A stretch of 64,000 nucleotides of DNA from a virus. Below are positions 1 through 64,000 of the stretch, one piece after another. The stretch spans positions 186,001-250,000 of IMG/VR virus record IMGVR_UViG_3300030419_008158; one strand, 5' to 3'. The notes under the pieces are model-generated. The model saw only the letters and a program-made list of their open reading frames with translations, ran no database searches and was not told the origin of the DNA. The position numbers were made by a program, and so were the translations under genes. Positions within the stretch are counted from its first letter, which is position 1. Each line of letters starts with the position of its first letter.

Positions 1-140
1 TGCGCCTTGCCCAGCCAGTCGGTGGCCGCTTGTTTTGACCCCTTTGCCGGCCAGAATGGTGCGTGCTTATCTCGCCTCTCGAGAAGACGGGCCTTCTCTT
101 CTTTGATGATTCTTCTGAGTTGTCGCTTTGAGATTCTCAT
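1..140 (-). CDS. Tagged phage protein, N-terminal fragment (cut by window edge)
   Basis: Only the first 46 residues are visible; the gene runs off the left edge. It opens with MRISKRQLRRIIKEE, followed by KARLLERRDKHAPFWPAKG. This is the same N-terminal tag carried by the next genes to the right, and it ends in the I-x-E pattern seen in T4-type prohead-protease sites. The start is the ATG at 138-140, 3 nt after the stop of the neighbouring gene. Function of the remainder is unknown. Confidence 0.75.
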   Translation of the reverse strand, partial: MRISKRQLRRIIKEEKARLLERRDKHAPFWPAKGSKQAATDWLGKA

Positions 141-143
141 TAT

Positions 144-344
144 CTATGCTTCTGCCTCTATAGTACCTTGTTCATATCCAGCATCATACGCCTGTGGATA
201 TGTTGAGCGATCAGCATCGTTTGGATACCCCTGATAAGCATCATCATACCCGCGATCGTACTCTTGATCTTCATCCCTGTTGGGGCTCATCATTCTAATC
301 TCTTCCTTGATGATCCTTCGCAGTTGTCGCTTGGTGATTCTCAC
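144..344 (-). CDS. Small tagged protein with Tyr/Asp/Gly-rich body
   Basis: 66 aa with a GTG start (342-344) and an AGAGGA ribosome site about 6 nt upstream. Residues 1-15 are the MRITKRQLRRIIKEE tag. The body is acidic and rich in Y, D and G, with a loosely repeated Y-D-x-G-Y pattern (YDRGYDDAYQGY, then YDAGYEQG). No enzymatic motif is visible. It is the shortest tagged protein here, so it could be a structural or DNA-mimic-like internal head protein, but that is a guess. Confidence 0.7.
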   Translation of the reverse strand: MRITKRQLRRIIKEEIRMMSPNRDEDQEYDRGYDDAYQGYPNDADRSTYPQAYDAGYEQGTIEAEA

Positions 345-357
345 GGTTTATCCTCTT

Positions 358-966
358 TTAAGCTCTAAAGGCATCTCGAACATAGTCGGTTGCGTAGTCA
401 ACGGCAGATTCCTTTTCGCCCTCAGACTCGGCGTACTCAATATTAGCAAGGGCATCGAGTGCCTCATCAACCTCAAACCCCGTACCCAAGTTTCGAACCA
501 TGTCTTCCAATTGAGCCAATGTTGCTGAATCGTTAGGGTTTCGTGATAGCTTGCTCAGCAGATCACTAGCTTGATCGTAAGTTGCTCGGCCACCAGATCG
601 ATTGTCGTCTACTACGTCCTGCACAAATGCGATCATTTGGTCAATAGGTTGTGATGGAGTATCAGAGTCTTCTTCGGAAACTGTGTGATAGCCTGCAGCT
701 TTAAGAGTGTTTAGCGACTGCAACTGTGCTTCAACACCGTCACGGGGCACCGGGCCGCCACCAAACTGCCTAGCAACATCATCATCGGTCATTGCGACGT
801 TATTTCCGTCTAGATACCAAAAACCCTGTGCTAAATCAGCATGACCCTTTTTGTCCATCTGCTCCATCAATCTTCTGCGCACAATTCTACGAATCTTCTG
901 CTCAGCCAGAACTTTGGCTTTCTCTTCTTTGATGATTTGTCTTAGTTGTCGCTTGGAGATTTTCAT
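358..966 (-). CDS. Tagged protein of unknown function, 202 aa
   Basis: The N-terminus is MKISKRQLRQIIKEE, then KAKVLAEQKIRRIVRRRLMEQ: three successive basic helical segments, each ending in [LI]-x-E or L-x-E-Q. The same extended leader is found in the next two genes. The remainder is acidic and helical, with no recognisable catalytic motif. ATG start; nearest upstream gene ends 16 nt away. Probable co-transcription with the whole 1-2.4 kb group. Confidence 0.8.
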   Translation of the reverse strand: MKISKRQLRQIIKEEKAKVLAEQKIRRIVRRRLMEQMDKKGHADLAQGFWYLDGNNVAMTDDDVARQFGGGPVPRDGVEAQLQSLNTLKAAGYHTVSEEDSDTPSQPIDQMIAFVQDVVDDNRSGGRATYDQASDLLSKLSRNPNDSATLAQLEDMVRNLGTGFEVDEALDALANIEYAESEGEKESAVDYATDYVRDAFRA

Positions 967-981
967 GTTGTTTTTTCCTTC

Positions 982-1371
982 TTACGTCATCTCGACAAAT
1001 TCGTCAAAGTCACCAGCTGCGTAAGGATCACCCCCTGCATACCAGTTGACAAACCAGTCCTTGAGCATTCCAACATCACCCGCGACGTCGAGCATGCTGT
1101 ACCCGCTTGGGCCGGTCCCCCTGTCTGTAAATCTCAGACCACGATATCGGGGGTTTCTTGTCATCTGCTTGAATGGACCACTCTCATCACGTATTTCCCC
1201 GTGTTCGTCCATCATGTCTAGGCCTCGAATTATTCCCTGTTGACCGGTTGGCTCAGCTGGTCCTCGCATCTTGATAGCTTGTTCAGCGATACGACGGACC
1301 TTCTGTTCAGCCAGGACCTTGGCTTTCTCTTCTTTGATAATTCTTCGAAGCTGTTTCTTTGTGATTCTCAT
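982..1371 (-). CDS. Tagged protein of unknown function, 129 aa
   Basis: I choose the ATG at 1369-1371 because it starts the MRITKKQLRRIIKEE tag and has an AGGAGC site 8-10 nt upstream. The leader continues KAKVLAEQKVRRIAEQ as in its neighbours. The start codon overlaps the stop of the upstream gene (TAATG), so translation is likely coupled. The globular part (about residues 45-129) contains aromatic and glycine residues typical of a small folded domain, but I recognise no family. Confidence 0.8.
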   Translation of the reverse strand: MRITKKQLRRIIKEEKAKVLAEQKVRRIAEQAIKMRGPAEPTGQQGIIRGLDMMDEHGEIRDESGPFKQMTRNPRYRGLRFTDRGTGPSGYSMLDVAGDVGMLKDWFVNWYAGGDPYAAGDFDEFVEMT

Positions 1372-2779: not shown

Positions 2780-3217
2780 TCAAGTCGACCGGTCCCAGGG
2801 ACGATTTCGAGTTCCGCCGCCGTAGGGTTTTTTCGGTCGAGGTTTGGGTGGGTTCGCCGCTCTTTTCTGCTTGAGCGCGTCCCGATAGGCCAGCACCAGA
2901 TCTTTTAGCTCGGCGCCGGTCGGATATTCTATCCCGGGGCGCATTTTTCTCGCGTGAAAGGACGCCGCGTTCGGACTAACGCCCAAAGCGCCAGCCAATT
3001 CGCGCGCCGCTTGCACGTCTCCGGGCGCCGCGACCATGCCGCTCCACAGCCTCGCCAAATCGTCCAACTCGCCGTCGGATCGTCTTGAGAGAAAACCCAA
3101 CCAACTTTTTAGCGCGAGGTCTCCCTCTCGGCGCAGCCGATCGAACTCCTCGATCGCGTCTTGAGTCTCCAGGGTTTCGGCAATGATCCGCCGCAGCTGT
3201 TTTCTTGTGATCTTCAT
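2780..3217 (-). CDS. Tagged protein of unknown function, 145 aa
   Basis: Start chosen at the ATG 3215-3217, which begins MKITRKQLRRIIAET; this tag variant ends I-A-E. The body is helical and charged, with a central segment (ELAGALGVSPNAASFHAR) that resembles a small helix-turn-helix. It ends in a basic, proline-rich tail (NPPKPRPKKPYGG). Its start overlaps the stop of the gene at 3214-3423, suggesting coupling. The HTH resemblance is weak and by eye only. Confidence 0.75.
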   Translation of the reverse strand: MKITRKQLRRIIAETLETQDAIEEFDRLRREGDLALKSWLGFLSRRSDGELDDLARLWSGMVAAPGDVQAARELAGALGVSPNAASFHARKMRPGIEYPTGAELKDLVLAYRDALKQKRAANPPKPRPKKPYGGGTRNRPWDRST

Positions 3218-3748: not shown

Positions 3749-4453
3749 TCAGCTCTCCTCGGAGCGATCGACGACAGCGTTCGCGCTCTCCAGAGCATCC
3801 AAAACAATGGCGCCCTCCTCACCCAAAGAATCAGCCAATCGCGATAAGCGGCGGTGCGCGATGTCCAGCGCGTTCGGGTTCTGTCTGAGCACTAGGTCCG
3901 CGAACTCCTCGTCCGCCCCGAACTGCACGTACATGTTCACAACGGCTTCCACCTGCTCCTGCACGGCGCCGCCCAGCTTGGCGTACTCCCGAGCAAAGTC
4001 GATAAGCAGGGAGCCCGACTCCTCTTCGCCACCAAAACCGTACTGCTCCGAGACAAGGCTGAGGTTGGTGTTCTTGCGGAAATTTCGACCCTCGCGCACT
4101 ACTGCCAGATACCCACCCGGAAATCCTGTCTTGAATCCTAGTTGTTCCAAGTACGCCTGGAACTCGTACGTGCGATCGCTGCTTCCGAAGCCCTCCTCGC
4201 TGTCCGCCAAGCTGTATGCCAGGTCGTCCGCGAAGTCCACGGCCATGGTGTTGATTCTCTGTCTCCCCACCGACTCGATCTCTTCGGGTGTGAGCAGATC
4301 TTCGGCGGTTCGCACGTATTCGCCCGGGTACACGACGTACTGGGTGTACTCGTCGGGGCCGTTGGCACCGAGGCCTCCGCGCTCGTCGAGCCTCCGCGTG
4401 AAAGCGGACTGCGCGCGCACGATCTCTCTAATCATCTCTTTGGAAATTTTCAT
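3749..4453 (-). CDS. Tagged protein of unknown function, 234 aa
   Basis: MKISKEMIREIVRAQ at the N-terminus is a looser version of the tag (IREIVRA in place of LRRIIKE). The rest is acidic, with aromatic-rich segments around residues 35-120 and a helical C-terminal half. No catalytic motif recognised. It is the first gene after the 410-nt GC-skewed non-coding block, so its promoter should lie there, although none of the GTGTAA class is visible. Confidence 0.75.
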   Translation of the reverse strand: MKISKEMIREIVRAQSAFTRRLDERGGLGANGPDEYTQYVVYPGEYVRTAEDLLTPEEIESVGRQRINTMAVDFADDLAYSLADSEEGFGSSDRTYEFQAYLEQLGFKTGFPGGYLAVVREGRNFRKNTNLSLVSEQYGFGGEEESGSLLIDFAREYAKLGGAVQEQVEAVVNMYVQFGADEEFADLVLRQNPNALDIAHRRLSRLADSLGEEGAIVLDALESANAVVDRSEES

Positions 4454-32654: not shown

Positions 32655-32990
32655 CTAAAACCCTACTGACTCTCCGCAACCACATGATCTTGTTGCCTTA
32701 GGAGAGTTGAAGGTAAACCCAGAAGACATTATCGTCTCTTCGTAGTCAACCTCTGTACCCATTAAGAATAGATATGATTTTTTGTCACACAAGACACGAA
32801 GACCAGGTTTTTCAATTATGTGATATAGACTTTCGTCTTCAGGGGGTTCAATGAAATCTATTTGATACTTGAAGCCGGAACAACCTCCTCCTTGAAGGCC
32901 TATGTGCAACGGCCAATCGTTAGGTTTATCCATTCGTGATCTTATTTCTTTCGCCTTCTGGATTGCTTTATCTGTTATCGTCAATTTCAT
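32655..32990 (-). CDS. A-type Fe-S carrier (IscA/ErpA/SufA-like)
   Basis: 111 aa. The three invariant cysteines are C37 (GGGCSGF), C103 and C105 (SCGCGES). GLQGGGCSGFKYQ is diagnostic. A-type proteins receive clusters from a scaffold and pass them to 4Fe-4S targets; two radical-SAM enzymes encoded in this window (41732 and 58818) would be natural clients. Overlaps the upstream tagged gene by 4 nt. Confidence 0.9.
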   Translation of the reverse strand: MKLTITDKAIQKAKEIRSRMDKPNDWPLHIGLQGGGCSGFKYQIDFIEPPEDESLYHIIEKPGLRVLCDKKSYLFLMGTEVDYEETIMSSGFTFNSPKATRSCGCGESVGF

Positions 32991-35023
32991 TTAGGGCTCC
33001 ATAGTTTGTTACGGTCAGTGTCGTAGATCGGAACACCAAGGTCTAGTGAAGCCAACATAATCTTCTTCACTACACCTGCCGAGAAATAATCAATGTCTTT
33101 AGCTGTGTTGCCACTAGGCGGGCTCTGACCGCCAGAAATTAGTTTTTCTGCTGTTTTGAGAATAGCGTCTGTAACATCATCCTTTGCAACGATAACCCCT
33201 CTAGGTCTCCAGTTATCCACCAGGGCCTCATTATTCGACCACTCTGCACCTACCGGGTTCCACGTTGACTGGTCTAAAACGTATGGGATACCATCTCTTG
33301 CCATCTTCTCCATATATTCGTTTCCGCGCTGGAGCTGGCCGTATCGGCTGTAATCTTTTGACACAGAGGGTCGTTTGTTTCTGCCAGAAGACCGATCTCT
33401 CTGTGCAATAGCCTCCTCGTCACCTTCTGGCCCTACACCATAATCCCCGTAAAACCCTGAATACATTTTGTCTTGATCGTTTGTTGCCAGCGTTATTCGA
33501 CCTTTGATCCACAGCCCGTATGGGAGACCGGCTGCTGGCTCAAAGCTATCACCAGGGAGAGTCATTGTGGTAGAAAGCTCGTCCTTGCCTCTTCCTTTCA
33601 TGTTCTCAATGCCATAGAAATCATCAGTCCAGTGGACAGTGTCTAGGGTGCTAAGAAATTGGTGGTCTGCATTCTTGTTGAATGCGCGCTTGATATCTCT
33701 GCCAGCCTCTTTGCCGATTTGCCCACCGAAGAACTGATCGCCGAACTTATCCGATGCGGCAAGGTCATGCACGAAGCCCATGGGGTCTTCCTTGAGAAGC
33801 TGTCTCACGTATTTTCTTAAAACGTTTTCTTTCATAGCATCCTTCTTTAGCCTAATCTCTACGTCGCTCCTCCCGAAGATCCCGTCTCCGCCAAGCGCGC
33901 TTGTTATTTTGTAACCTAGAGACTCAATGCTGGCGACATCTTCTGGAAATTGTTGGGCGAACTCTTCGACTCCCATGACCGTCTTTTCAGGCATGAGACC
34001 GGTGCCGAATATTAGTTCCTCAACGCCCTCTTCCCTGTAGCTTTCGTCGAAGTTCCTAAACTCTCCACCCATAGCCTTGATGAGATCGATGAGAGGCCCA
34101 TGATCAGCATACATTTCCTTTTCGGCTTGTTTTCTTGCGCGGTCGAGGCCTCGGTGTTCGACCTCGAAGATATTGAACATTGCCACCTTTCCCTTGAGTG
34201 GGTCAAGCACTGTGTCAAACATGTCTTTGAACTTCTTTTCGTATTGCTGTGCCCTTTGGTCGTGCTTAGACCCGGGATTTAATTCGATGATATCACCGTT
34301 TTTCATGTTAAGTTGTTCTGGAACGCCGAGAACCAAGCTTCCATCGTTCTTTAGGTAGTCAGCAAAGATGTCGCCAAATAGATCAAAGTCACCACTGGGT
34401 AGTTCGATACCCGGAAACAGCTCACTCAGCAAGACGTCTGGGTTTGAGACACCAAGTCTGCGACCAGTTTTCTTCATTGAATCTCTAACATGTTCGGCTT
34501 CCATGGTTCCACCACCATGAGACAGCCAGACCAGTTCCATCATATACTCTTTTATAAGAGTTGTGAATGGGTCTTTAGCGCTGAATGATTTCGCATCACT
34601 ATTCTCAAGCATGTGGTGTAGATCATGCGCCAGATAGTGAGGGTTAACGTCAGCTATGAATGTATCTCCACCGGCAGGAACTTCAAAAGACTTAGGGTAG
34701 ACGTAAAGAAGATTGATTCCGTCTGGATCCATCTCCTTCTGTATTTTCGGGTATAGCTTTCCGATGTTTGAAATGTCAGTAAGGGCAACTTGTCCTCTAC
34801 TCTTGAACCCTGATACTTTACCCTGTATTTCATTTGGCAGTCTATGCGCCCAGCTGAGGTCGTCTGTGTGTGCGACATAGATGTTGACGCTCTGTGGGAT
34901 TGCTTTGAAGTAGTCAGCAACCTCTTCGCGGACCATTACATCGTCGTCATCCTGCTTGAGATATTCAAAGTCGTCTAGAGGGACTTCCATGAGAAGGTCT
35001 CTTATGTATTCGTGTAGTAACAT
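32987..35023 (-). CDS. Large tagged protein with internal second tag and ART-like C-terminal domain
   Basis: 678 aa. The N-terminal tag is MLLHEYIRDLLMEV. The first domain (20-390) includes AHDLHHMLE and a helical region. A second tag, MKENVLRKYVRQLLKED, sits at 397-413. After it, residues 415-678 are homologous to the protein at 40915-41730: TVHW, ELSTTMTLPGD, YGLWIKGRITLATND and NNEALVDNW align. The H/R, S-T/S and E spots resemble those of ADP-ribosyltransferase folds, but this is tentative. Probably a fusion of two tagged proteins, or a polyprotein to be cut at the inner tag. Confidence 0.7.
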   Translation of the reverse strand: MLLHEYIRDLLMEVPLDDFEYLKQDDDDVMVREEVADYFKAIPQSVNIYVAHTDDLSWAHRLPNEIQGKVSGFKSRGQVALTDISNIGKLYPKIQKEMDPDGINLLYVYPKSFEVPAGGDTFIADVNPHYLAHDLHHMLENSDAKSFSAKDPFTTLIKEYMMELVWLSHGGGTMEAEHVRDSMKKTGRRLGVSNPDVLLSELFPGIELPSGDFDLFGDIFADYLKNDGSLVLGVPEQLNMKNGDIIELNPGSKHDQRAQQYEKKFKDMFDTVLDPLKGKVAMFNIFEVEHRGLDRARKQAEKEMYADHGPLIDLIKAMGGEFRNFDESYREEGVEELIFGTGLMPEKTVMGVEEFAQQFPEDVASIESLGYKITSALGGDGIFGRSDVEIRLKKDAMKENVLRKYVRQLLKEDPMGFVHDLAASDKFGDQFFGGQIGKEAGRDIKRAFNKNADHQFLSTLDTVHWTDDFYGIENMKGRGKDELSTTMTLPGDSFEPAAGLPYGLWIKGRITLATNDQDKMYSGFYGDYGVGPEGDEEAIAQRDRSSGRNKRPSVSKDYSRYGQLQRGNEYMEKMARDGIPYVLDQSTWNPVGAEWSNNEALVDNWRPRGVIVAKDDVTDAILKTAEKLISGGQSPPSGNTAKDIDYFSAGVVKKIMLASLDLGVPIYDTDRNKLWSPK

Positions 35024-35024
35024 C

Positions 35025-36182
35025 TTATAATCCTATAAAGATAACGTCGCCTGACGAGTTGTACTCTCTTGCCAAGGACGCCCAGACTCGCTTAGCTTCT
35101 GGTGAAGTTCCTGACCCTATTGTGCAGTGATGTGCTCCAATAAACACACCACCCGATGATCTAGAGTATTCTACTGCCTTGTCAATAAAGGCTTTGTAGA
35201 TTTGCTTACCGTATCCCTTGCCTCTGTTTTCAGGGTTGTTGATCCAGGCATTGTCAACATCATAGAATTTTGGTCGGAATACCGCTTGTCCTATCTCTAC
35301 TTCTTCGTACTGACCAGTTTCTTCGTTTTTAACAATGTCGGTTCTTGGTTTTGCGTTCGCTACATACTTCTTTTCTGCATCGAGATATTCAGGTGTCTTC
35401 ATTAGAGCGTCAACATCTGATTGGCACTCTTTGAATCCAAGGTTTGACCCTCCTTGAGCATATCCGATGTTAGGTAGATCAACACGAAAGTAGTAGCTGT
35501 CACCTCTGTGCTTGAACGTAGCAGCCTCTGTCAAGGTTGCTGTGTATCTACTGTCACCTTCATATATGAACTGATCTACGTGATTAAAGCTTAAACCTTG
35601 AGCTGCGCCAAGAATTTCAACTTCAGCCATGCATTCGTTTCTGGCACCACCTGCAAGATCTGAACCACTCCAGCTGGGTAATTCATCTTCTAAATCAGGA
35701 ATCCAAAACCCGTAATCCTCAAGATCGTCAATCAAAAGCTCACTTACACCAATTGATTCAATGTCTTCTTCTTCTAGATCTCGAATGTCTCTAATGTCGT
35801 TGTCGATCATGTGCTTGACAATCTTTACGATTGACGCGCGGTCAAAACAAACACTCGAGTCCATAACGTCTCTGAAAAATCCGTATCCTTTGTCGAAGAA
35901 GGTCGACTTGGAAAGCAAATCATCGAACAGCTCTTCATCGTAGTCCAGCTTTTCGAAGTAGAAGTTCTTCAGTGCAGATTCTGAAACCATGCCGAGAGTA
36001 TCTTCACCGTTGAACAAGAATAGTACCCTGGAATAATCTTCTGCTGCAGTTCTTAACATATCACCGATATCGAACGATGTGCCGCTTTCGTATTCTGGCT
36101 GGATGTCAACTACGACAAGACTACCCTTTGATCCTTGCTCTTGCTCGAGTAAAACCCTTATATATTCACGCAGCAGCTTCAT
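35025..36182 (-). CDS. Tagged protein with C-terminal GNAT acetyltransferase domain
   Basis: 385 aa. The tag MKLLREYIRVLLEQ is followed by a domain starting LVVVDIQPEYESG, which recalls the first strand of isochorismatase-like hydrolases. A helical acidic middle part follows. The C-terminal GNAT-like domain (from about 210) contains the acetyl-CoA loop RGKGYGKQIYKAF. TSPEAKRVWASL, a pattern shared with the GNAT gene downstream, lies near the end. If injected, it could acetylate a host protein. The N-domain identity is uncertain. Confidence 0.7.
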   Translation of the reverse strand: MKLLREYIRVLLEQEQGSKGSLVVVDIQPEYESGTSFDIGDMLRTAAEDYSRVLFLFNGEDTLGMVSESALKNFYFEKLDYDEELFDDLLSKSTFFDKGYGFFRDVMDSSVCFDRASIVKIVKHMIDNDIRDIRDLEEEDIESIGVSELLIDDLEDYGFWIPDLEDELPSWSGSDLAGGARNECMAEVEILGAAQGLSFNHVDQFIYEGDSRYTATLTEAATFKHRGDSYYFRVDLPNIGYAQGGSNLGFKECQSDVDALMKTPEYLDAEKKYVANAKPRTDIVKNEETGQYEEVEIGQAVFRPKFYDVDNAWINNPENRGKGYGKQIYKAFIDKAVEYSRSSGGVFIGAHHCTIGSGTSPEAKRVWASLAREYNSSGDVIFIGL

Positions 36183-36775
36183 GATATCACCAGCTTTCCT
36201 GCAGCCTCAAGCGCACTCATTGTTGTGGGTGGCTTTGTGTATCTCTTGCTAAGGGGTGATCCCTGAAAGTCAACGACCTTTGGCATACCTGCGCTGCTTC
36301 GTCCGACTGTGGATGCATGTTGCTCGCAGTTATCTTCTTCTTCCGGTGTAATGGTGTTTTGCAAGTCATCAAGCTGGACGCTTTGTACGTCACTACGGTT
36401 TGACAGATAATAATCCCAGACTTCTCTTGCGGACGGTGAGACGTGATCACGATCGGAGACTAAGCCCCCACCGTTTTGAGTCGCCCATTCCATCATTACA
36501 TCATATAGCATAGGGCCCCAGCCCTGGGAGGCATGTGATATTACAACTTCCCAGGCACCGCCGCACGGATGAGCAGGCTTCCTGACAGCTATTTTTCCAC
36601 CGATTGGAGCTGTCGAATGAATATAGGTTCCGTAGTCAGGGTTTTTCACAACATAGCGAACTACAGCATGATCACCCTTGTTTAGGACCTCTACAAACAC
36701 GTCTTCTGGTAAATCAGCAGGCCCTTTAGCAGCCTCGGTCAGCAGTTCTCTTATGTACTCGCGGAGTAGGTTCAT
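36179..36775 (-). CDS. Tagged GNAT-like acetyltransferase
   Basis: 198 aa. Tag MNLLREYIRELLTEA. A GNAT-like core follows: WEVVISHASQGWGPMLYDVM, with a Q-G-W-G-P acetyl-CoA loop, and LVSDRDHVSPSAREVWDYYL. The last 60 residues look disordered. Overlaps both neighbours by 4 nt. Known GNATs acetylate proteins, antibiotics or small amines; the target is unknown. Confidence 0.7.
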   Translation of the reverse strand: MNLLREYIRELLTEAAKGPADLPEDVFVEVLNKGDHAVVRYVVKNPDYGTYIHSTAPIGGKIAVRKPAHPCGGAWEVVISHASQGWGPMLYDVMMEWATQNGGGLVSDRDHVSPSAREVWDYYLSNRSDVQSVQLDDLQNTITPEEEDNCEQHASTVGRSSAGMPKVVDFQGSPLSKRYTKPPTTMSALEAAGKLVIS

Positions 36776-37557
36776 CGCCCTGTTATCTCCTTCGCCTGCT
36801 CAAGCGTTTTAATGTTCCAGCCTTCGGGATTTAGATCATACTTTGGGTGCAGACCTTGCATCACTAAGTCCAGCCAATACTCCCACAGCTCACCAGATTT
36901 TTCCTGAAGCTGGTTGCGTGATATACGGATTGGTATCATCTCATCCAGCAAAGTGGCAGCTTTAGCTCTGTGGTGACCGTCTGAAAACATGAGAGATCCA
37001 TCAGCATAAACTCGGACATCCAGGGGTTCCCTTATCCCACCAGCAAAATGTTTTTCAGCCCAGGCGAGTTGCTCTTCCTTGGGCAGCTTGCGAAAGTTTT
37101 GCCAATACCACTCGGTCCGGTACTCACCTGTATCTGTGTCTAAAATCTTGGCGGGTACCATCAACTGTTGGCCGGCTGTTTCAAGAAGCACAGACTCTTG
37201 CATCGTCCATGGGCCAGCCTGACCGCTTTTCAAACAGTTGACCATTGTCTCTTCGGCTGTGTATTCGTTATGAATTTCTGGTTGGAATATGTCGTAATAC
37301 GTTTCTCTGTCAATCCCACCTGGTTTTGTGTCGTGGGTCTGCCAGTCAAATATCATATCACCTTTTTCAACCCAGGCATGAAGATAACTCTCGCCGCTAA
37401 ACTTATCAGTCACCCTACCATGAACAACCTTGAACCTGGTTAGGTCTGAGAATTCTTCTTGAGAAGAACCCTGAGCCATCTTGACAGCATGCGGATAGCA
37501 CTGGCCTATCGCAGTCTCAATCAGCAGACCTCTTATGTACTCGCGGAGCAGGTTCAT
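36772..37557 (-). CDS. Tagged protein: possible papain-like domain plus ParB-like domain
   Basis: 261 aa. Tag MNLLREYIRGLLIET. Residues 18-75 hold QCYPHAVKMAQ, YLHAWVEKGD and MIFDWQ: C20, H60 and D71 are in the order of a papain/transglutaminase-type triad. Residues 175-210 (PLDVRVYADGSLMFSDGHHR) carry the G-H-H-R motif of ParB/Srx-like nucleotide-binding domains. Overlaps the next gene by 4 nt. Both assignments are by motif only. Confidence 0.6.
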   Translation of the reverse strand: MNLLREYIRGLLIETAIGQCYPHAVKMAQGSSQEEFSDLTRFKVVHGRVTDKFSGESYLHAWVEKGDMIFDWQTHDTKPGGIDRETYYDIFQPEIHNEYTAEETMVNCLKSGQAGPWTMQESVLLETAGQQLMVPAKILDTDTGEYRTEWYWQNFRKLPKEEQLAWAEKHFAGGIREPLDVRVYADGSLMFSDGHHRAKAATLLDEMIPIRISRNQLQEKSGELWEYWLDLVMQGLHPKYDLNPEGWNIKTLEQAKEITGR

Positions 37558-38801
37558 TAGTCTTCGCCCTTTGATACTGTCGTGTCATTATATTTCTTTT
37601 TCATCCAATTTGACAACGCTTTTGTCACGTCTATCTGAGACAGTCTTGTGTCGTCCGGAAACGATTTTAGGTTGTTGAGATAATCTTTAAAAAATAAATT
37701 CTCAACAGCATCATCGAGAACTCTAGACACATCATCATCAACGTCTAATGCTGCAAGAGCTCCTGTCTCAGCCTCGTCCGGAAGCTTGTACGCATTTTTC
37801 GCAGCCATGGCAAGATTTTTTGCTGTTGCGAAACCTGGAATCATACCCTGGATTTCATCAACGACGATATCGGTTACTGTAGCAGCCAGTCCCTTGGCAC
37901 CCTCCTTACCCTGCTTCTTAAGCTGAGCGTATTTGATCACCGCTCTTAGGTCGCCAACTGTCTTAACATCGTTAATTGACGTCATCTTTTTCTTTTGTTT
38001 TTTCTCTACAAGAATTTTCTGTAACAGCGCTTCCCTTATGTAACTTCTTATGATTGATTCATTCATGTACTTCTTGAGAAGGTCAATAAGCTCCTTGTCT
38101 TTACCCCTTGGTTGTTTACCAAGGTAGGGGACGACTAGTCCTTTTCTATCCCGCGGACCCTTGACCACCTCTGCAGGGCCCTCCTGTGCGTACTCATCTT
38201 CAAATTTTGTTAGGGCTTTCTTGATCTCTTCTTGGGACATCATCTTGATCGCAGCTTCGGGATGATTGGTCGATCTAAGTCCTGAAATGCTAGATGCGCC
38301 GTCCTCATGTTTGTGCGCGCCACGAATACCTTTTTTTTGTTTCGCGCTGTAATAAGAAGAGTCAACCGAGTCCCACAGCTCGTCTTTATCCATGGTCTTG
38401 CCCAAGAATTCTATCTCATCCCCAGCCTCTTCCCACACCTCTTGTGATATGAGAACTTCTGACCCTGTATCAAACCGGTTCACTCCTCCCGATTTTTCGA
38501 TGACCCAGTGCGGAACTTTGTAGGCATACACGTTACCGCTAACACCATGATTCCAGGCGATATCTGTTGGGTTGGGTGTTAGAAACACACCGGATTTAAC
38601 GGGACCCTCTATCCAGTCTCTGGACCAGCCTTCCTCTCCTTTTGCACCCCAGCGCTCGGCCGGTTTTGGTGAAGCGGGGCGTTTGCCGATATGATAAAGT
38701 GTACGCTTGTCCTTCTGGCCTCGAATCGATTTTTCAGATAGAATATCTCTTATATGTTTTCGAATCAAATCCACTTTAAAGTTCCTAAAAGCATATTTCA
38801 C
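37557..38801 (-). CDS. Tagged protein with ART-like N-domain and internal second tag
   Basis: 414 aa. The tag lies slightly inside (VDLIRKHIRDILSEK, 10-24). TLYHIGKRP (34-42), GVFLTPNPTDIAW (71-83) and SEVLISQEVW (114-123) are in the order Y-H...F-L-T...E expected of an ADP-ribosyltransferase-like fold. A second tag is at about 246-265 (MNESIIRSYIREALLQKILV). It is followed by a helical domain that ends with an acidic segment (ALDVDDDVSRVLDDAVENLF) and a basic C-terminus. Probably two tagged proteins fused. Confidence 0.6.
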   Translation of the reverse strand: MKYAFRNFKVDLIRKHIRDILSEKSIRGQKDKRTLYHIGKRPASPKPAERWGAKGEEGWSRDWIEGPVKSGVFLTPNPTDIAWNHGVSGNVYAYKVPHWVIEKSGGVNRFDTGSEVLISQEVWEEAGDEIEFLGKTMDKDELWDSVDSSYYSAKQKKGIRGAHKHEDGASSISGLRSTNHPEAAIKMMSQEEIKKALTKFEDEYAQEGPAEVVKGPRDRKGLVVPYLGKQPRGKDKELIDLLKKYMNESIIRSYIREALLQKILVEKKQKKKMTSINDVKTVGDLRAVIKYAQLKKQGKEGAKGLAATVTDIVVDEIQGMIPGFATAKNLAMAAKNAYKLPDEAETGALAALDVDDDVSRVLDDAVENLFFKDYLNNLKSFPDDTRLSQIDVTKALSNWMKKKYNDTTVSKGED

Positions 38802-40041
38802 TACTCATAACATCTTCTAAATAACCAAATGTATTTTCTGGTTTACCGTTCAAATCAAAAGTCATTCCGGAGGTCGCATCAGCAAGAGGCTCCCATCCGC
38901 CGGTTATGTCTTTGCTCATGTTGTCTATGAAAGCGTACAGCTTTATATCATCAATTGATTCGAGCATCATCAATAGCTTTTCCTGTGTTATCGTACTGTT
39001 AGTATTGTATGACTTACCGACTTTTGATGCAGGAATTAGAAAACTTTGTCCAGGCTCATCAGTAAAAACTATGACAATTTTTTTGCTATTCGCTCGCCAG
39101 TCCACATAAAACTCATCAAGAGGCGGATCGGACTCATCTATTACATTGCCCACCCATACAGGCCATAAAAGCTCTTCCCACTGGTATGGCAAAAAAGCAG
39201 ATATATTTCTTAGAGATAAATAAAGTGCGTCATATAACATCTCATACTGCCCTATCATGTCATATGTTGTTACGTCACCTAGCACATCCTGAAATTCCCC
39301 TATTGCTTGCAGGTTACTAGCCAAGTACAGAAAATTATGTTTTCCTGGCGTGTCGCCGGCGTTTTTAGGGCCCACAATAAGTGCCCACTTTACATGACTT
39401 GATTCTTTATACTTTTCAGAGAAAGCACTTGCAAGTGCATAGACAGATTCAATTTCTGGTAACATAGATGCAGACAAATCAAGTATGATCAGTACGTCGA
39501 CGTCTTCTTTTTCACACTCATCGTAAACGCTAATACTTGAGTCTTCTTCAGGGTCAGAAAGTGCGTCTTCAGGTTGCTCTGCTGCGATGTCTTTGACGTC
39601 TTTTTCTTCTCTTTCACCTTGTGTAAAGCTTCCCTTGCAGAGACCCTCTTCTAAGTACCCTTTAACGCAGTATGTTGTATAAAAACCTTCGTTTCCGTCT
39701 TCTGTGACGCAAGGCTTTTCGCCCAAATTATAGTGGTGAGGATCACACTCTAGAAACTCTTTGCACTCACTCATACTCAACACTATCGGCGGGTCCACAC
39801 AGACATCTTTTGTAATCTCAATTCTCATTAGAGGTCCACTAACACCAGGGCAAAAATAATATTCTGTTCTTATACATAGTTTCTCGTATTCTTCTTGAGA
39901 ATCAACTATTATAATTTCGCTGGTGTCGTTGTCATAATTCACATGTGTATGGTAGACAGGGTTTTCCATAAACCATTCCGAACAACTTACGTTGGTAAAA
40001 GACAGCAATATCATCGCAAGAAGTATTAGTGTGTGTTTCAT
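38785..40041 (-). CDS. Exported VWA-domain (lipo)protein
   Basis: 418 aa. Signal peptide MKHTLILLAMILLSFTNVSC; C20 could be a lipid anchor, though the -3 residue is unusual. A cysteine-rich region spans 55-135 and an acidic linker 140-175. The VWA domain starts at DVLIILDLSASM (about 182-193), with MIDAS D-x-S-x-S, and includes IVIVFTDEPG. Cell-surface VWA lipoproteins of this style are frequent in Deltaproteobacteria-type genomes, so the gene is probably host-derived. It sits inside the tagged operon but has no tag. Confidence 0.75.
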   Translation of the reverse strand: MKHTLILLAMILLSFTNVSCSEWFMENPVYHTHVNYDNDTSEIIIVDSQEEYEKLCIRTEYYFCPGVSGPLMRIEITKDVCVDPPIVLSMSECKEFLECDPHHYNLGEKPCVTEDGNEGFYTTYCVKGYLEEGLCKGSFTQGEREEKDVKDIAAEQPEDALSDPEEDSSISVYDECEKEDVDVLIILDLSASMLPEIESVYALASAFSEKYKESSHVKWALIVGPKNAGDTPGKHNFLYLASNLQAIGEFQDVLGDVTTYDMIGQYEMLYDALYLSLRNISAFLPYQWEELLWPVWVGNVIDESDPPLDEFYVDWRANSKKIVIVFTDEPGQSFLIPASKVGKSYNTNSTITQEKLLMMLESIDDIKLYAFIDNMSKDITGGWEPLADATSGMTFDLNGKPENTFGYLEDVMSSEICF

Positions 40042-40571
40042 GCTTTCACCATCATGGGGCTTTCTTCGTCTTTCAAGAGGATGAGATCGAATTGTGATTC
40101 CTGAGATGCGAATTTATCTTTTCTCTTAATGAAGAGGTATATCGCCGTGATTGGCATAGCGGCACCAGGTTCCATTCTTATTTCGTTTTCGTCCCAGAAC
40201 AGCCGCGGTTCTTGGCCCGCAGTAATTGGATCGTAGCCTTGTCCATCGTCGATAGTAGCCTGAAGGATTACATGAATTGTCTTGCCTCTATTCGAAGCAT
40301 CCCACACATCAGCAAATCTAACAGCAGTATGAAAAGTCTCAGACCACGAAACACCGGTGGATTCATTTTGTAGCTGACCGAGGATTAATCTTGCTCGCTC
40401 GTCGCCGCTGATTTTACCCCTACGGATTGCTGACGCTAATGATGCACTGGGCATTGTAAGCTTCATCCCTCTGTATACGTTTTTCTTGCCCTTTGTGAAG
40501 GATGGTTGTCCGTAAGCTGATGCAATCCTTTCGTTCAATAGAGACCTTATGTATTCGCGGAGAAGTTTCAT
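40038..40571 (-). CDS. Tagged ADP-ribosyltransferase (T4 Alt/ModA-like motifs)
   Basis: 177 aa. Tag MKLLREYIRSLLNER. The R-S-E signature is clear: R34 in VYRGMKL, S75-W-S77 in GVSWSETF, and E128-N-E130 in WDENEIRMEPGA. This is the arginine-specific ART pattern of T4 Alt and ModA, which modify host RNA polymerase. T4 Alt is packed in the head and injected. If the tag is a head-targeting signal, this protein would be an injected effector of the same kind. Overlaps both neighbours by 1-4 nt. Confidence 0.8.
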   Translation of the reverse strand: MKLLREYIRSLLNERIASAYGQPSFTKGKKNVYRGMKLTMPSASLASAIRRGKISGDERARLILGQLQNESTGVSWSETFHTAVRFADVWDASNRGKTIHVILQATIDDGQGYDPITAGQEPRLFWDENEIRMEPGAAMPITAIYLFIKRKDKFASQESQFDLILLKDEESPMMVKA

Positions 40572-40918
40572 TATATCTTACTCAAACTATCCGGCCATTT
40601 TTTCCATGTTCGACTGTCACCGTCAGGCTGAACCATGACGAATTTTCCGCCGCGGCGCACAACAGTCCCCACCTTTAGAGAACCGTTCTTGAGCGTCCAT
40701 TGGACCCGGTCGCCTTTTTTGAATCCGGCCTTTAATTCATTTCGCTTTCGCTTGACTGTGTCAGCCACAGCTGTCCATATGACTCGAAGATCAGCTATTG
40801 GCATCTCTTCCATTTGATCCAAGATAACTTGAACGTTTGGGTTCTGGGCAGGTGGTTCTACGGGAGCATCTGCCGTTTCCTGAATCAATTTTCTTAGTTG
40901 TCTCTTAGTAATTTTCAT
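40571..40918 (-). CDS. Tagged protein with SH3-like domain
   Basis: 115 aa from ATG 40916-40918, which begins MKITKRQLRKLIQET (tag type A, here within the type B operon). A proline-rich linker follows, then a helix (QVILDQMEEMPIADLRVIWT). The last 50 residues (FKKGDRVQWTLKNG, VGTVVRRGGKFVMVQPDG, WPDSLSKI) are a KVGDLV-type domain. It unites the two hallmark sequence families of this genome in one chain. Confidence 0.75.
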   Translation of the reverse strand: MKITKRQLRKLIQETADAPVEPPAQNPNVQVILDQMEEMPIADLRVIWTAVADTVKRKRNELKAGFKKGDRVQWTLKNGSLKVGTVVRRGGKFVMVQPDGDSRTWKKWPDSLSKI

Positions 40919-41730
40919 ACCCAACCCCTCGATGTGAACTCTTTGTGAGTCATGACTTGAATGTCCAGGCCGGCTTCTTCCGCCAGATCCTCCCATTCTT
41001 CTGCTTCTGTTGTATCGGGAACTTTCGGTTCGGTTCGTTCGGAACCCGGGTGCCACTCCGGAGGCAATCTGGTAAGTGGACCATCAGGTACGATCAACGC
41101 CATAGGTGTCCAGTTATCAACCAGCGCCTCATTGTTCTGTGTGCTTCGAAATCCGCCAAAGCTTGGATCCCAGTCTTCTTCATCCAGGACTAGAATCTTG
41201 TACTCTTCATAAGCTTCTGGGTCGTATGTCGATTGAACGCCCTTGTTGATACCAGACTGCTTCTTCATATCCGGGAATACTTCTTCGTATGCCAGTGTTC
41301 CCCCTGTGTAAAGCTGGTCCATATCATTTGCCAAAAGCGTGATATGGCCTTTGATAAGAATGCCATAGTCTCCGAATTTACCTGCACCCTTGATCTCACC
41401 TGGTAGATAAGCTGAAGCTGATAATTCATCCTTGGAGCTAAATGATCCGTCAAGAAAAGCTTTCATCGTCTGAGGGCTTCGAAACCAGTGAACAGTTACC
41501 AAGCTGTCAAGAAACCCGCGATCAGCACTTTTGGCAAACGCCTTCTTGAGATCTCGCCCCTGTGAACGTGCTTGCTTAACTAGTTCAACATGTTCTTCAT
41601 CGGTAGCGTATACACTGGGGGTTGGATTGTTCTCTTTAGTACCTGCTGCGGCGAGATCTTTAGCTAACTGTTTGCGTTTAGCTGCGTCTTCAATCAGCAG
41701 ACCTCTTATGTATTCTCGGAGGATGTTCAT
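40915..41730 (-). CDS. Tagged protein, paralog of the C-terminal half of 32987-35023
   Basis: 271 aa. Tag MNILREYIRGLLIED. The body aligns with residues 425-655 of the 678-aa protein: KKAFAKSADRGFLDSLVTVH, DELSASAYLPGE, YGILIKGHITLLANDMDQLY and NNEALVDNW. H (VHW), S-x-S (LSAS) and E (NEALVDNW) occupy positions reminiscent of ART catalytic motifs. This supports an ADP-ribosyltransferase-like fold but is not proof. Confidence 0.65.
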   Translation of the reverse strand: MNILREYIRGLLIEDAAKRKQLAKDLAAAGTKENNPTPSVYATDEEHVELVKQARSQGRDLKKAFAKSADRGFLDSLVTVHWFRSPQTMKAFLDGSFSSKDELSASAYLPGEIKGAGKFGDYGILIKGHITLLANDMDQLYTGGTLAYEEVFPDMKKQSGINKGVQSTYDPEAYEEYKILVLDEEDWDPSFGGFRSTQNNEALVDNWTPMALIVPDGPLTRLPPEWHPGSERTEPKVPDTTEAEEWEDLAEEAGLDIQVMTHKEFTSRGWV

Positions 41731-41731: not shown

Positions 41732-43045
41732 TTATGTCTTATCTCCGACTATAGTATCTATCAGCGCTTTTCTTCTGTCCTTATCAGCCCACGCTTTTTG
41801 CGCGTACGGGTCTAGCGAGTGAAGAGGGTCGAAATACAAAAACTTTTTTCCTGGCTTTACGCTGGGTGCTGTGTATACGCTTATCCCAAAATTCCTGTCG
41901 TATCTCTCAAAAGAATGTACGCAACGCTTTCCACCGCCGCCGGGAGCATCGACAACAAACGTGGGTGTGTTAAATCCAGCAGTAACTCCTCGCACACTCT
42001 TCTCAACATCTATCGCAGTCTGAACTGACGTTCTCATATCCTCAGTACCAGCTGTTAGGTCATGAATGTAGACATAGTAAGGCTGGATGTTAATGTAGCT
42101 TAGCTTTTTCACCAATGATATCATGCTGTCGGCAGAGTCGTTCACGTGATTCTGAAATACAGACTGATTTCTGACTTTTACTCCCCTCGAAAATAAAACG
42201 TTCATGGCGTCTTGTGTGATACCCGTAATTTCATTTGAGTGATTGAAATGCGTATGAATACATACCTCTTTGTACTGTTTTCTTGCCTTGCTAGTTATCC
42301 TACACACAGCATCTGTCCACGCTGCGTCTGTCAAGATCTTCATCGGCATAATCGCAAGACCCTTCGTAGCAAATCGGAACCGCCTAATGTGATCAATCTT
42401 TAGAAGCTCTTCACCTAAGTCTTTTACCTGAGAGGCTTTTAAGCGATAAGAATCTCCTCCGGATATCACTACATCCTGAATTTGCTTGTTTTCGCGGAGG
42501 TACTTGAACATATCATTCCACCGATCTCGAGAGGCTTTAATAGATACTTTCTCCGCTGTGTCTGTGTCTCCCCCGACGGCGTATGCCCGAGTGCAGTATC
42601 GACAGTATACAGGGCACGTGTCTAGCGCAAGAAATAGCACCTTATCTTCGTATCGATGAGTCAGACCTTTTACAGGAGAGTCTGCCTGTTCACCCAAGCT
42701 ATCGAAACGTAACATAGGATGATCAGGTTGAAGATGTGAAGCAAGCGTCAGGAATTGTCTTCTGATGGGACAATTGTCAGGATTGTTCCAATTCATCAAC
42801 GAAAGAAGATAAGGCGTAATACGTGTCGTCATCGGTGCTCTTCTAAAACCTTCTTTAGCGTCTTCTAGAAACTTTTTATCCACAAGATCCTGAATTGTAT
42901 TTAGAAGCTTCCTGTGATTTGTAATTGCATTCTTTTCTTGCCACTTATGATCAACAAAAGTGTCATAGTCGATATCCCGCCATGCAGGAATAGCTCTCCA
43001 AAACTCATCGCCTCTGAATTCTGTGCTGTCTGAAAAGACGTTCAT
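41732..43045 (-). CDS. kamA-like: Lysine 2,3-aminomutase-family radical SAM enzyme
   Basis: 437 aa, close to the bacterial enzyme (about 420-440). Radical-SAM cysteines C144, C148 and C151 lie in CPVYCRYCTR. PLP lysine K373 is in DAPGGGGK. D303 (NDSAD context) and D366 (VVDAPG) match the two aspartates that hold the lysine substrate. The enzyme interconverts alpha- and beta-lysine; beta-lysine serves as an osmolyte, and lysylation of EF-P uses a related enzyme lacking the C-terminal part present here. Fe-S carriers encoded 9 kb away could mature it. Very unusual phage cargo. Confidence 0.88.
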   Translation of the reverse strand: MNVFSDSTEFRGDEFWRAIPAWRDIDYDTFVDHKWQEKNAITNHRKLLNTIQDLVDKKFLEDAKEGFRRAPMTTRITPYLLSLMNWNNPDNCPIRRQFLTLASHLQPDHPMLRFDSLGEQADSPVKGLTHRYEDKVLFLALDTCPVYCRYCTRAYAVGGDTDTAEKVSIKASRDRWNDMFKYLRENKQIQDVVISGGDSYRLKASQVKDLGEELLKIDHIRRFRFATKGLAIMPMKILTDAAWTDAVCRITSKARKQYKEVCIHTHFNHSNEITGITQDAMNVLFSRGVKVRNQSVFQNHVNDSADSMISLVKKLSYINIQPYYVYIHDLTAGTEDMRTSVQTAIDVEKSVRGVTAGFNTPTFVVDAPGGGGKRCVHSFERYDRNFGISVYTAPSVKPGKKFLYFDPLHSLDPYAQKAWADKDRRKALIDTIVGDKT

Positions 43046-43770
43046 GCAAAACCTCCAGCGTTAGGATATCTTATCTTTGCATATTTTCTATACTCACTTC
43101 TTATTTTAAGCATAAAGGGATGTAGACTCTCTTCAGAATAACCGTTCGCTTTTCCCGTTTCAAAAATTCTGTACAGCTCATAATCTATCACATCACTCAA
43201 AGGCACCTTGTTGGATTTTGCTCTCTTCATAAACCCAGCAATGTGTGCCTTTACTTCGGCGGGACAAAGATAGTATTCAGCAGCATTTGAAAGTGACTTC
43301 CAAATCACATCAGCTGTGGGTGTCTTTTCTTGACAATCCATAAGTTCCCACGTCTCTTGCCCTGAGTGCTCTAGTTCATGTCTAATAACATCAACTAGCT
43401 CGTCATTAATGTTACTAAGAACTTGATCCGGATAATCTCGAGGCAAAACAAGATTCACACGTAAATCTGACGTCGATCTTTGGGACTGTGATGCTCCTAA
43501 ATCATACTCATAAGCAGCATCTGCGTTGACAGATTGTCCCTCTGTTACATGGATAATCACATCCCTAAGATAATCTATTTCTGTAATTTCCGGTACATTC
43601 TGCAGCCTAAAATAGGCTTCTCCAGTTTGTCTAAAATGCTCTCGAACATCTTCATCTTTTAGAGCACTTAGAACATGGCGCTTTATTATTGTCGTATATC
43701 TATCAAGCTTGCGACCGGTAATCACAGCCTCAAACAGCAAAGAGCTTATATAGTCACGGAGAAGCTTCAT
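43042..43770 (-). CDS. Tagged putative zinc metallopeptidase
   Basis: 242 aa from ATG 43768-43770, beginning with the tag MKLLRDYISSLLFEA. HExxH at 131-135 (HELEH) followed by SGQETWE gives a candidate zinc site. The preceding NDELVDVIR is typical of the helix leading into it. The rest is helical. If delivered into the host with the DNA, it could cleave a host protein; no family assigned. Its end overlaps the KamA start by 4 nt. Confidence 0.7.
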   Translation of the reverse strand: MKLLRDYISSLLFEAVITGRKLDRYTTIIKRHVLSALKDEDVREHFRQTGEAYFRLQNVPEITEIDYLRDVIIHVTEGQSVNADAAYEYDLGASQSQRSTSDLRVNLVLPRDYPDQVLSNINDELVDVIRHELEHSGQETWELMDCQEKTPTADVIWKSLSNAAEYYLCPAEVKAHIAGFMKRAKSNKVPLSDVIDYELYRIFETGKANGYSEESLHPFMLKIRSEYRKYAKIRYPNAGGFA

Positions 43771-60816: not shown

Positions 60817-60831
60817 CTCGCTGTCTCCGTG

Positions 60832-61632: not shown

Positions 61633-61650
61633 GACAATCTCCTTTTTGAA

Positions 61651-61727: not shown

Positions 61728-61737
61728 TCAAATAACT

Positions 61738-61810
61738 TACCCCCTGTCCGGTTCGAACGGACGACCTAGCGGTTAAAAGCCGCGTGCTCTACCAACTGAG
61801 CTAAGGAGGT
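61738..61810 (-). tRNA. tRNA-Lys (UUU)
   Basis: 73 nt without encoded CCA (the 3' neighbours are AAG). Acceptor ACCTCCT with AGGGGGT, anticodon loop CTTTTAA, D- and T-arms complete. Second copy of the lysine isoacceptor in the window. Confidence 0.9.
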
Positions 61811-61814
61811 ATAA

Positions 61815-62226: not shown

Positions 62227-62232
62227 ACATAA

Positions 62233-62309
62233 TGGCACCCCGAACAGGATTCGAACCTGTGACCCTCGGCTTAGAAGGCCGATGCTCTATCCAGCTGAGC
62301 TATCGGGGC
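62233..62309 (-). tRNA. tRNA-Arg (UCU)
   Basis: 77 nt, CCA encoded. Acceptor GCCCCGA with TCGGGGT, loop CTTCTAA (TCT), complete D- and T-arms. Decodes AGA/AGG. Confidence 0.95.
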
Positions 62310-62347
62310 ATTTTTTATTTAGATTTCAATGAGCAATCTTACAAGAT

Positions 62348-62376
62348 ATTATAACATCTTCATTGATCATTTACAT
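62348..62376 (-). promoter_or_regulatory. Predicted promoter ATGTAA-N17-TATAAT
   Basis: ATGTAA (62371-62376), 17 nt, TATAAT (62348-62353). About 39 nt ahead of the tRNA-Arg 5' end. Likely drives the 61.6-62.3 kb tRNA cluster. Confidence 0.7.
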
Positions 62377-62388
62377 CTATTATATGAT

Positions 62389-62474
62389 TGGTGCGGCTGG
62401 CGGGATTCGAACCCGCATAGCTCAAAGCCGACAGATTTTAAGTCTGTTGTGTATACCAGTTCCACCACAGCCGC
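62389..62474 (-). tRNA. tRNA-Leu (UAA)
   Basis: 86 nt, CCA encoded. Acceptor GCGGCTG with CAGCCGC, loop CTTAAAA (TAA), long variable arm as in leucine tRNAs, T-arm GCGGG/CCCGC. Confidence 0.95.
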
Positions 62475-62522
62475 GAAATCTCTTTATATTTCAATGAGCG
62501 TGTCAACCTCTTGACAGAAAAT

Positions 62523-62551
62523 ATTATAACACGCTGTGACTGTCTTTACAC
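62523..62551 (-). promoter_or_regulatory. Predicted promoter GTGTAA-N17-TATAAT
   Basis: GTGTAA (62546-62551), 17 nt, TATAAT (62523-62528). 49 nt ahead of tRNA-Leu. Confidence 0.8.
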
Positions 62552-62561
62552 GAAATAAGCC

Positions 62562-62960
62562 CTACAGAACAGTAGAGGCTACTATTTTTTTTGCCCACTT
62601 AATACATGGTTTTAGAAAAGCATATGTGTTTTCTTCCAGAACGTCCCAATCAACCCACTGTGAGTCAATGTGCTCAACGACGAGAGTGTGTGGGTGAGGA
62701 GTTATGACTGGATCTTGGGTTGTCTGTGCCACGTAGCATGTCATATCTCCACTGATTACACTCTTGTTGCCCCAGACAAAATTGAGATTTGTAATGCCAG
62801 CTTCTTCTTTGGTTTCACGTAAAGCTGCTTCTAAAGAAGACTCTCCGGGATCAATGATACCCTTGGGAATATCCATCACGCCGTCTCTTGCGATAAGTGC
62901 AAGAACTTTTGTCTTTTCGTGAATCTGTCTGACGATTATAATTCCAGCGCCGGGTTTCAT
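62562..62960 (-). CDS. Nudix hydrolase
   Basis: 132 aa. The Nudix box is complete: GIIDPGESSLEAALRETKEE, then AGI (G-x5-E-x7-R-E-x2-E-E-x-G). Nudix enzymes clean up or regulate nucleoside diphosphate derivatives such as oxidised dNTPs, NAD, or ADP-ribose left by ADP-ribosylation. Immediately follows a small membrane gene. Confidence 0.92.
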   Translation of the reverse strand: MKPGAGIIIVRQIHEKTKVLALIARDGVMDIPKGIIDPGESSLEAALRETKEEAGITNLNFVWGNKSVISGDMTCYVAQTTQDPVITPHPHTLVVEHIDSQWVDWDVLEENTYAFLKPCIKWAKKIVASTVL

Positions 62961-63145
62961 TTCTTTTTCTTTCTACGTGCTGAACGTCTGATGAACTTTT
63001 CCAACAAAAAAAGTCGCCGCTTTAGAAACTTGTTCTCTAGTTCGAGGCGTTTGCGTGCTTCTTCGTCTTCTGGGCTCATGAATAGAAAGGAGACGAAAAT
63101 TCCTGCTAAAAAGCAAAGAAAATGGGTTACAAATGTATAGACCAT
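62957..63145 (-). CDS. Small membrane protein with basic tail, 62 aa
   Basis: MVYTFVTHFLCFLAGIFVSF is a membrane helix, then an acidic patch (MSPEDEEARKR), a charged helix and a poly-Lys/Arg end (RRSARRKKKK). Its stop overlaps the Nudix start by 4 nt. Unknown. Confidence 0.6.
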   Translation of the reverse strand: MVYTFVTHFLCFLAGIFVSFLFMSPEDEEARKRLELENKFLKRRLFLLEKFIRRSARRKKKK

Positions 63146-63169
63146 GAATTTCTCTCCTGTTGTATATTA

Positions 63170-64000
63170 TCATATGCTTATTTCGACAATCCTCATTGGC
63201 GTCGCAATATATTCATTCCATAGACTGGTTCGAACTTCCCCGTCGCATGTATCAAGCTCATAGCAAATATTGTTCTTGTCTCGTCCCGGGTATTCTAGTC
63301 GAAGCAAATTACATGCTCGGCGCCCATTATCAACTGCATACGACTTAATGTCAGATCTAAATCCAGCTCTAACATTACCGACTAGAGTTAGGATTATGTT
63401 TGACTCTTTTCTAAAGAAAGGCCTTTCAGCAGTCGTAAAGCAAGAAATGTCAAAAGTTTGCCCGGATGCTATTGACTTTTGAATTCTTTCCACACCCGAA
63501 AGTGTTGTATAGTGAAAAAGTTTTTTTGGATTGTGTGTGCTTCCGTATAGCTGTGTTGTAAACTCATCATCAAGAAGGACATAAGGCTCCATGTCCCCCC
63601 TGGAATAAAAGTAAGCAAACTTTAAATTCTCGATATCTGGAAAATAGCTTCCAAAATCTCTCTCAAATGACCAGAACCTGTGATTGACAAAGTCTTCAAT
63701 GAAGTCGTAAACATTCTTGACTGTAAGAAGATCGTATCTAGGCACTTCGACATTGAGCTGAAATGAAAAGTATTTTTCAATCAACGCTCTTGCTTCATGA
63801 ATCTCTTGAGTTTCACACGAGTCAGGATGCTTGCAGCTAATCTCTCCACCCCTTGAATCTATTCCTACTTCTTGAAGCTTCAACATTTGCACAACAAAGT
63901 CTTCCCACTGAGCAAGCGTAAAAAAAGATGAAGCTGGCTTAAAATAGCCTAACACTCTTTTTTCTTCTTTTATAGCTTCTTTGATAAATTCATGTAGCAT
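63170..64000 (-). CDS. Tagged protein with possible ART-like C-terminal domain (start at window edge)
   Basis: 276 aa if the ATG at 63998-64000 is the true start. MLHEFIKEAIKEE is a divergent tag, ending I-K-E-E. The N-half is helical with two cysteines. The C-half holds LFHYTTLSGVERI, FDISCFTTAERPFF and, near the end, CDGEVRTSLWNEY: Y/H, S-x-F-T and E in the order of ADP-ribosyltransferase folds. Tentative. It lies 20 kb from the main tagged operon. An upstream continuation beyond the window cannot be excluded. Confidence 0.6.
   Translation of the reverse strand: MLHEFIKEAIKEEKRVLGYFKPASSFFTLAQWEDFVVQMLKLQEVGIDSRGGEISCKHPDSCETQEIHEARALIEKYFSFQLNVEVPRYDLLTVKNVYDFIEDFVNHRFWSFERDFGSYFPDIENLKFAYFYSRGDMEPYVLLDDEFTTQLYGSTHNPKKLFHYTTLSGVERIQKSIASGQTFDISCFTTAERPFFRKESNIILTLVGNVRAGFRSDIKSYAVDNGRRACNLLRLEYPGRDKNNICYELDTCDGEVRTSLWNEYIATPMRIVEISI

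Follow-up and report, generated by a model that had tools for sequence, protein, structure and literature searches.

Bacteriophage T4 packages a handful of proteins by means of a short N-terminal peptide, the capsid-targeting sequence (CTS), which is carried by the internal proteins IPI-III and by Alt and is processed by the S77 protease gp21, which cleaves after L/I-x-E (PMC9026906). T4 IP1-3 have nothing in common except this packaging leader, and T-even IP1-3 inhibit GmrSD restriction (PMC12373910). T-even variants found through the signal sequence keep the leader while the cargo varies, at least 10 having been reported in the group (PMC12373910). In the giant phages phiKZ and SPN3US, many ejection proteins are likewise packaged together with the DNA and undergo processing by a distant homologue of gp21 (PMC5694885), but their propeptides are mostly long with no single shared tag, the proteases fall within the diverged S80 group, and no comparable tag arrays are described there. 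Here we describe a set of N-terminally tagged proteins in a giant marine bacterial virus (jumbo phage) of an uncultured clade. The window, that is the whole stretch of DNA analysed (64,000 nucleotides), comprises bases 186001-250000 of the 284,429-base virus record IMGVR_UViG_3300030419_008158; the genome beyond it was covered as separate stretches of the record, and gene starts were taken from a simple caller. We propose, with a probability of roughly 0.85, that the tag serves for capsid targeting and processing in a T4-like system operating on an unusual scale, which probably includes polyprotein cargo.

The parallels with T4 are a short N-terminal peptide on unrelated proteins, the L/I-x-E rule, an S77 protease and a T4-like head module; moreover, T4 Alt is an ADP-ribosyltransferase (PMC9026906, PMC12373910), as one type of cargo here appears to be. 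Unlike T4 with its handful, this phage has about 50 tagged proteins, two tag families, and internal tags in chains that carry several cargos; and where the T-even variants number at least 10 in a group, there are dozens in this one genome and hundreds across its relatives. The principle is known from T4, whereas the scale and the fusion of several tagged proteins in one chain are not known from there. The families are QLR (MKITKRQLRRIIKEE) and REYI (MKLLREYIRxLLxE), and MKITKRQLRRIIKEE and MKLLREYIRELLTE represent the tag peptides of the phage. A preliminary description of the window had listed the tagged open reading frames (ORFs); all the strongly tagged ones exist where it placed them, on the minus strand:

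1..140, minus strand: N-terminal part of a QLR-tagged ORF cut by the window edge (genome 185415-186140); a second, internal tag lies outside the window
144..344, minus strand: QLR-tagged ORF, 66 aa, GTG start, cargo very acidic
358..966, minus strand: QLR-tagged ORF, 202 aa, with a second L-A-E site (KAKVLAE) past the tag
982..1371, minus strand: QLR-tagged ORF, 129 aa
1371..1784, minus strand: QLR-tagged ORF, 137 aa
1946..1953, minus strand: predicted late-like promoter motif GATATTTA; the QLR array starts 169 nt downstream
2780..3217, minus strand: QLR-tagged ORF, 145 aa
3426..3746, minus strand: weakly tagged ORF (MSATRGLLRNIVRECVAAE), 106 aa, score 7.0; cargo clusters with canonically tagged proteins of relatives
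3749..4453, minus strand: weakly QLR-tagged ORF (MKISKEMIREIVRAQ), 234 aa, score 6.8; three tagged homologues among relatives
32987..35023, minus strand: REYI-tagged protein of 678 aa with two cargos (tag, domain H with an HDLHH motif, internal tag ENVLRKYVRQLLKE, domain B)
35025..36182, minus strand: REYI-tagged ORF, 385 aa, C-terminal domain GNAT-like; its halves are separate ORFs in one relative
36179..36775, minus strand: REYI-tagged ORF, 198 aa, GNAT-like by eye; its junction LLTE-AAKGP recurs inside a 931-aa protein of the relative G006
36772..37557, minus strand: REYI-tagged ORF, 261 aa, with two domains, the second ParB-like and preceded by a remnant linker, ESVLLE-TA
37557..38774, minus strand: REYI-tagged ORF, 405 aa, GTG start, N-terminal domain ADP-ribosyltransferase-like by eye, internal tag at residue 240
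40038..40571, minus strand: REYI-tagged ORF, 177 aa, ADP-ribosyltransferase-like; R34, S75-W-S/T and E128-x-E130 invariant in 6 homologues
40571..40918, minus strand: QLR-tagged ORF, 115 aa, situated within the REYI operon
40915..41730, minus strand: REYI-tagged ORF, 271 aa, consisting of domain B, the C-terminal half of 32987-35023
43042..43770, minus strand: REYI-tagged ORF, 242 aa, HELEH metallopeptidase-like motif; homologous domain behind an internal tag in L056
44142..44149, minus strand: predicted late-like promoter motif GATATTTA; the first REYI-operon gene, 43767-44105, begins 44 nt downstream
63170..64000, minus strand: ORF without a supported tag, N-terminus MLHEFIKEAIKEE, score -3.4

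Alignment of 36 QLR proteins shows that MKITKRQLRRIIxEE is all that is kept, with a mean column identity of 12%. A profile was built from the 15 window tags only, each scored by leave-one-out, and used with a cut-off score of at least 17; as a chance control, 39,000 shuffled N-termini gave a best score of 18.6 and a 99.99% point of 15.0. QLR tags scored 29.6-45.1 and REYI tags 10.8-37.4, ORF 37557-38774 (10.8) being the only window tag within the shuffle range. Across the 1699 ORFs scored, the cut-off was reached by 14 window ORFs on the minus strand, by 33 ORFs in the remaining genome and by no plus-strand ORF. The tag family is therefore larger than the at least 16 unrelated window proteins first claimed. 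A broader profile recovers 47 tagged ORFs in this phage, 40 in its relative G006 and 27 in its relative G008; in all, about 50 otherwise unrelated proteins of the phage carry the tag. Three ORFs had been put forward as looser members. The scores of 3749 (6.8) and 3426 (7.0) are reached by about 0.6% of shuffled N-termini, but the cargos of both are related to canonically tagged cargo in relatives; ORF 63170, at -3.4, was rejected.

What is conserved is the peptide, not the DNA, because synonymous codons vary (tag DNA identity 0.71 versus 0.66 for random codons) and the DNA upstream of the tags is unconserved (identity only 0.29). A degenerate DNA pattern of the tag found 1-21 matches per record in 16 records, and its reversed control found none. 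These data bear on the idea that a DNA or translation element, such as a 5' leader or a recombination hot spot, sits at the gene starts and that the peptide has no targeting role. The slight excess of tag identity over the random-codon expectation and an exchange of cargo between homologous tags at the contig ends (below) speak for it; the codon variation, the unconserved upstream DNA and the internal tags, which have no start codon, make it very improbable.

The tag helix is basic and amphipathic, with a charge of +0.2 per residue, and, as first described, ends at [LI]-x-E. Among 85 QLR proteins from three genomes, 78 have [LIVM]-x-E at residue 14, and 29 contribute to a second peak at residues 21-22 (background 2%); REYI tags were seen directly to end at [LI]-x-E. 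In each of the 13 loci in which its junction was found, the major capsid protein carries a comparable one, Q-[AGS]-Q-[VIL]-L-[KR]-E, right ahead of the conserved domain (6 of the loci searched did not match the capsid pattern). This Q-x-L-[KR]-E junction agrees with the L/I-x-E rule of T4 gp21 (PMC9026906).

The S77/U9 prohead protease whose presence the preliminary description had left to be looked for is encoded in the genome, as an S77 enzyme (PF03420, E 5.7e-27; PHROG 207, head maturation protease, E 9.8e-51). It belongs to a T4-like head module with a gp23-like major head protein (PHROG 138, E 1.1e-71; also PF07068), a portal and a large terminase. Immediately upstream of the capsid gene lies a scaffold-like acidic ORF of 540 aa (isoelectric point (pI) 4.5, net charge -56). 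Two small genes that are themselves tagged, MAKITKRMLKGIVKECLVEILSE (genome 81574-82035) and MAKRVRKITPNFLKRIVVEEARKLQAE (81252-81533), sit with the protease on one side and the scaffold and major capsid genes on the other; they score 22.6 and 17.8 with the window-only profile against the shuffle maximum of 18.6. Their orthologues adjoin the protease in relatives, with tag variants, and among 1082 head-region ORFs they largely make up the second score tier, after the canonical tags. In T4, the core genes 67 and 68 also adjoin the protease gene. Relative G006 has two neighbouring gp23-like major capsid genes (open frames of 640 and 631 aa; G006:C1:177340-180120).

A helix of this kind would also suit membrane or nucleic-acid binding, and the tag could accordingly target the host membrane, the nucleoid or another shared partner during infection, with no packaging involved. 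We consider this improbable, given that the tag is present on protease-linked head genes, that its helix ends at an [LI]-x-E site and that it is found with S77 phages where tested.

The expression signals fit packaging of the tagged proteins. At a distance of 24-46 nt, the motif AGATA[TC]TTA precedes the portal gene, further genes, some tagged arrays and the REYI operon (window 44149). The gene cluster at about window 5-31 kb (5000-30700), in which there is no tagged gene, is instead marked by a sigma-70-like pair, TTTGTGTAA and TATAATA, with a spacing of about 17 nt. We infer that the former is a late and the latter an early promoter. The tags thus appear not to be confined to early proteins, an outcome against which the preliminary description had set its case: tagged operons lie outside the early-like region, several of them behind the late-like motif shared with the portal gene. 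The T4 late promoter TATAAATA was not enriched and hence rejected. The early-like region also contains, at about 13400-29650, many small tandem paralogous ORFs beginning M-K-V/I/P-G-D-L-V, and a tmRNA (tag ANDNVEYDYALAA) and eight tRNAs are encoded at 45895-46258 and 46762-62474.

In the proposed mechanism, late synthesis of the tagged proteins would be followed by docking on the prohead core through the basic amphipathic helix at their N-terminus, with the very acidic scaffold as the probable site, in the same way as for the tagged core proteins. The S77 protease would cut after [LI]-x-E and remove the tag, and the freed cargo would remain in the head and enter the host along with the DNA. 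About 50 proteins of the phage may use this route, via QLR and REYI tags, and chains with several cargos and internal tags would probably be cut into separate proteins. Docking, cleavage, packaging, injection and effector function are all predictions from sequence.

The cargo behind the tags is modular. Together, 462 distinct tagged ORFs of relatives and this phage's own form 345 cargo clusters, of which 268 are single. The same domains occur N-terminally in one genome and inside a multi-cargo chain in another, with the L-x-E junction retained. Domain H starts as MLLHEYIRDLLME-VPLDDFEYL here and as ESVVRQYIKDLLVE-VPLDDFEYV within a close relative's 988-aa ORF, a chain with three tagged cargos. 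ORF 36179 starts as MNLLREYIRELLTE-AAKGPADLP, compared with GESVIVRLLTE-AAKGPQDLP inside the 931-aa protein of G006, which also has DUF192, poly(A) polymerase head and PAP2 domains. In nearly every locus examined, a REYI-type tag, sometimes degenerate, precedes the homologues of domain B and ORF 40038, both at protein starts and within longer chains. The ParB-like second domain of ORF 36772-37557 stands alone with its own N-terminal tag in one relative, and the domain behind the internal tag of ORF 37557-38774 recurs under a QLR tag at genome 273550-274326, so that a single domain is used under both tag families. Internal tags in this genome occur almost exclusively in proteins that are already tagged; the exception, in protein 266204-266824, lies near the start and may mark the true gene start. 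These patterns suggest multi-effector polyproteins, in which 2-4 cargo domains with internal tags would enter the prohead and be cut at every [LI]-x-E, one gene yielding several injected proteins, with cargo freely reshuffled between genomes at the tags; we give this even odds. We found no description of such polyprotein-style cargo for tailed phages. At the contig ends (genome 1-392 and 284009-284429; L002, L013), 91-96% identity flanks one wholly different tagged cargo, as an exchange of cargo between homologous tags within the population, or an assembly artefact, would produce; because the ends overlap imperfectly, the record may be mis-assembled or variable there.

Pfam, PHROGs and PADLOC searches of the cargo gave few matches. 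The product of ORF 40038 looks like an ADP-ribosyltransferase: R34, S75-W76-S/T and E128-x-E130, present in all six homologues, correspond to the catalytic R, S-x-S/T and E-x-E motifs of the R-S-E class, and several top PDB matches of its structure model (predicted local distance difference test (pLDDT) 78) are enzymes of this type, with weak scores (best E 0.035, template-modelling score 0.39). The model of domain B (40915-41730; pLDDT 46) was too poor for use. ORF 36772 has a weak ParB-like match and a homologue of ORF 35025 a weak GNAT match, and tagged chains of relatives contain poly(A) polymerase/tRNA nucleotidyltransferase head, HAD RNA-repair and PAP2 domains. The effector cargo of the preliminary description is upheld for a few cargos only. 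QLR cargos are short, with a median length of 106 aa, and acidic, with a median pI of 4.6 versus 5.9 (p 2.5e-9). Acidic inhibitors can act by DNA mimicry against restriction, a possible role for this cargo.

Could the tagged proteins be packaged but structural, a core or filler of the large head rather than injected effectors? The head cluster does contain two tagged genes, most small QLR cargos could not be matched to a known enzyme family, and T4 IPIII mutants affect head assembly (PMC9026906). However, the extreme cargo turnover (345 clusters) is unlike that of assembly proteins, and some REYI cargos look enzymatic, as do the domains in relatives; we regard this alternative as unlikely, though clearly less so than the other two.

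Two genes of the REYI operon are untagged. Window 41732-43045, within it, is radical-SAM / lysine 2,3-aminomutase-like (PF12544, E 5.3e-7); its first gene, 43767-44105, matches the PADLOC model SNc+LTD (staphylococcal-nuclease-like). Directly downstream, two ORFs at 32387-32990 resemble, by eye, NifU- and IscA-type iron-sulphur cluster proteins.

Among the IMG/VR matches listed, all 12 tagged records of at least 140 kb, and 18 of 30 tagged records overall, have S77. Bacterial and archaeal genomes totalling 257 Gb contained the tag pattern only on contigs of four metagenome-assembled genomes (MAGs), with S77 on the tagged contig in one, on another contig in one and not found in two. NHDW01000006.1, a 306-kb contig assigned to a Methylococcaceae MAG, is probably a mis-binned phage genome because it carries tag arrays and S77. 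In INPHARED, isolated phages showed no tag match other than a weak hit in a 484-kb uncultured phage, and a literature search for the tag peptide string gave none.

Several observations weigh against the capsid-targeting interpretation. Twelve of the tagged records listed, all shorter and possibly fragments, lack S77, and the association of S77 with the tag is by itself no more than suggestive, since the viral counts cover tagged records only. The prohead core role of the two tagged head-cluster genes is deduced from their position alone. QLR cargo is acidic, whereas T4 internal proteins are basic (PMC9026906). The tag has no clear sequence homology to the T4 CTS (MKTYQEFIAE): when our tag model was applied to 470 T4 starts, IPII and IPIII ranked 16 and IPI 110. 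Finally, we found no virion proteomics for this uncultured clade.

The proteins injected by giant phages are mostly unknown, and a readable tag turns this gap into a candidate list: about 50 proteins in this phage and, across related phages, hundreds of cargo families, most of them without known relatives. The candidates are likely to include counter-defence proteins, as T4 IP1-3 are. The tags would also make up a large natural collection of packaging peptides, possibly together with a case of polyprotein-style cargo in a tailed phage.

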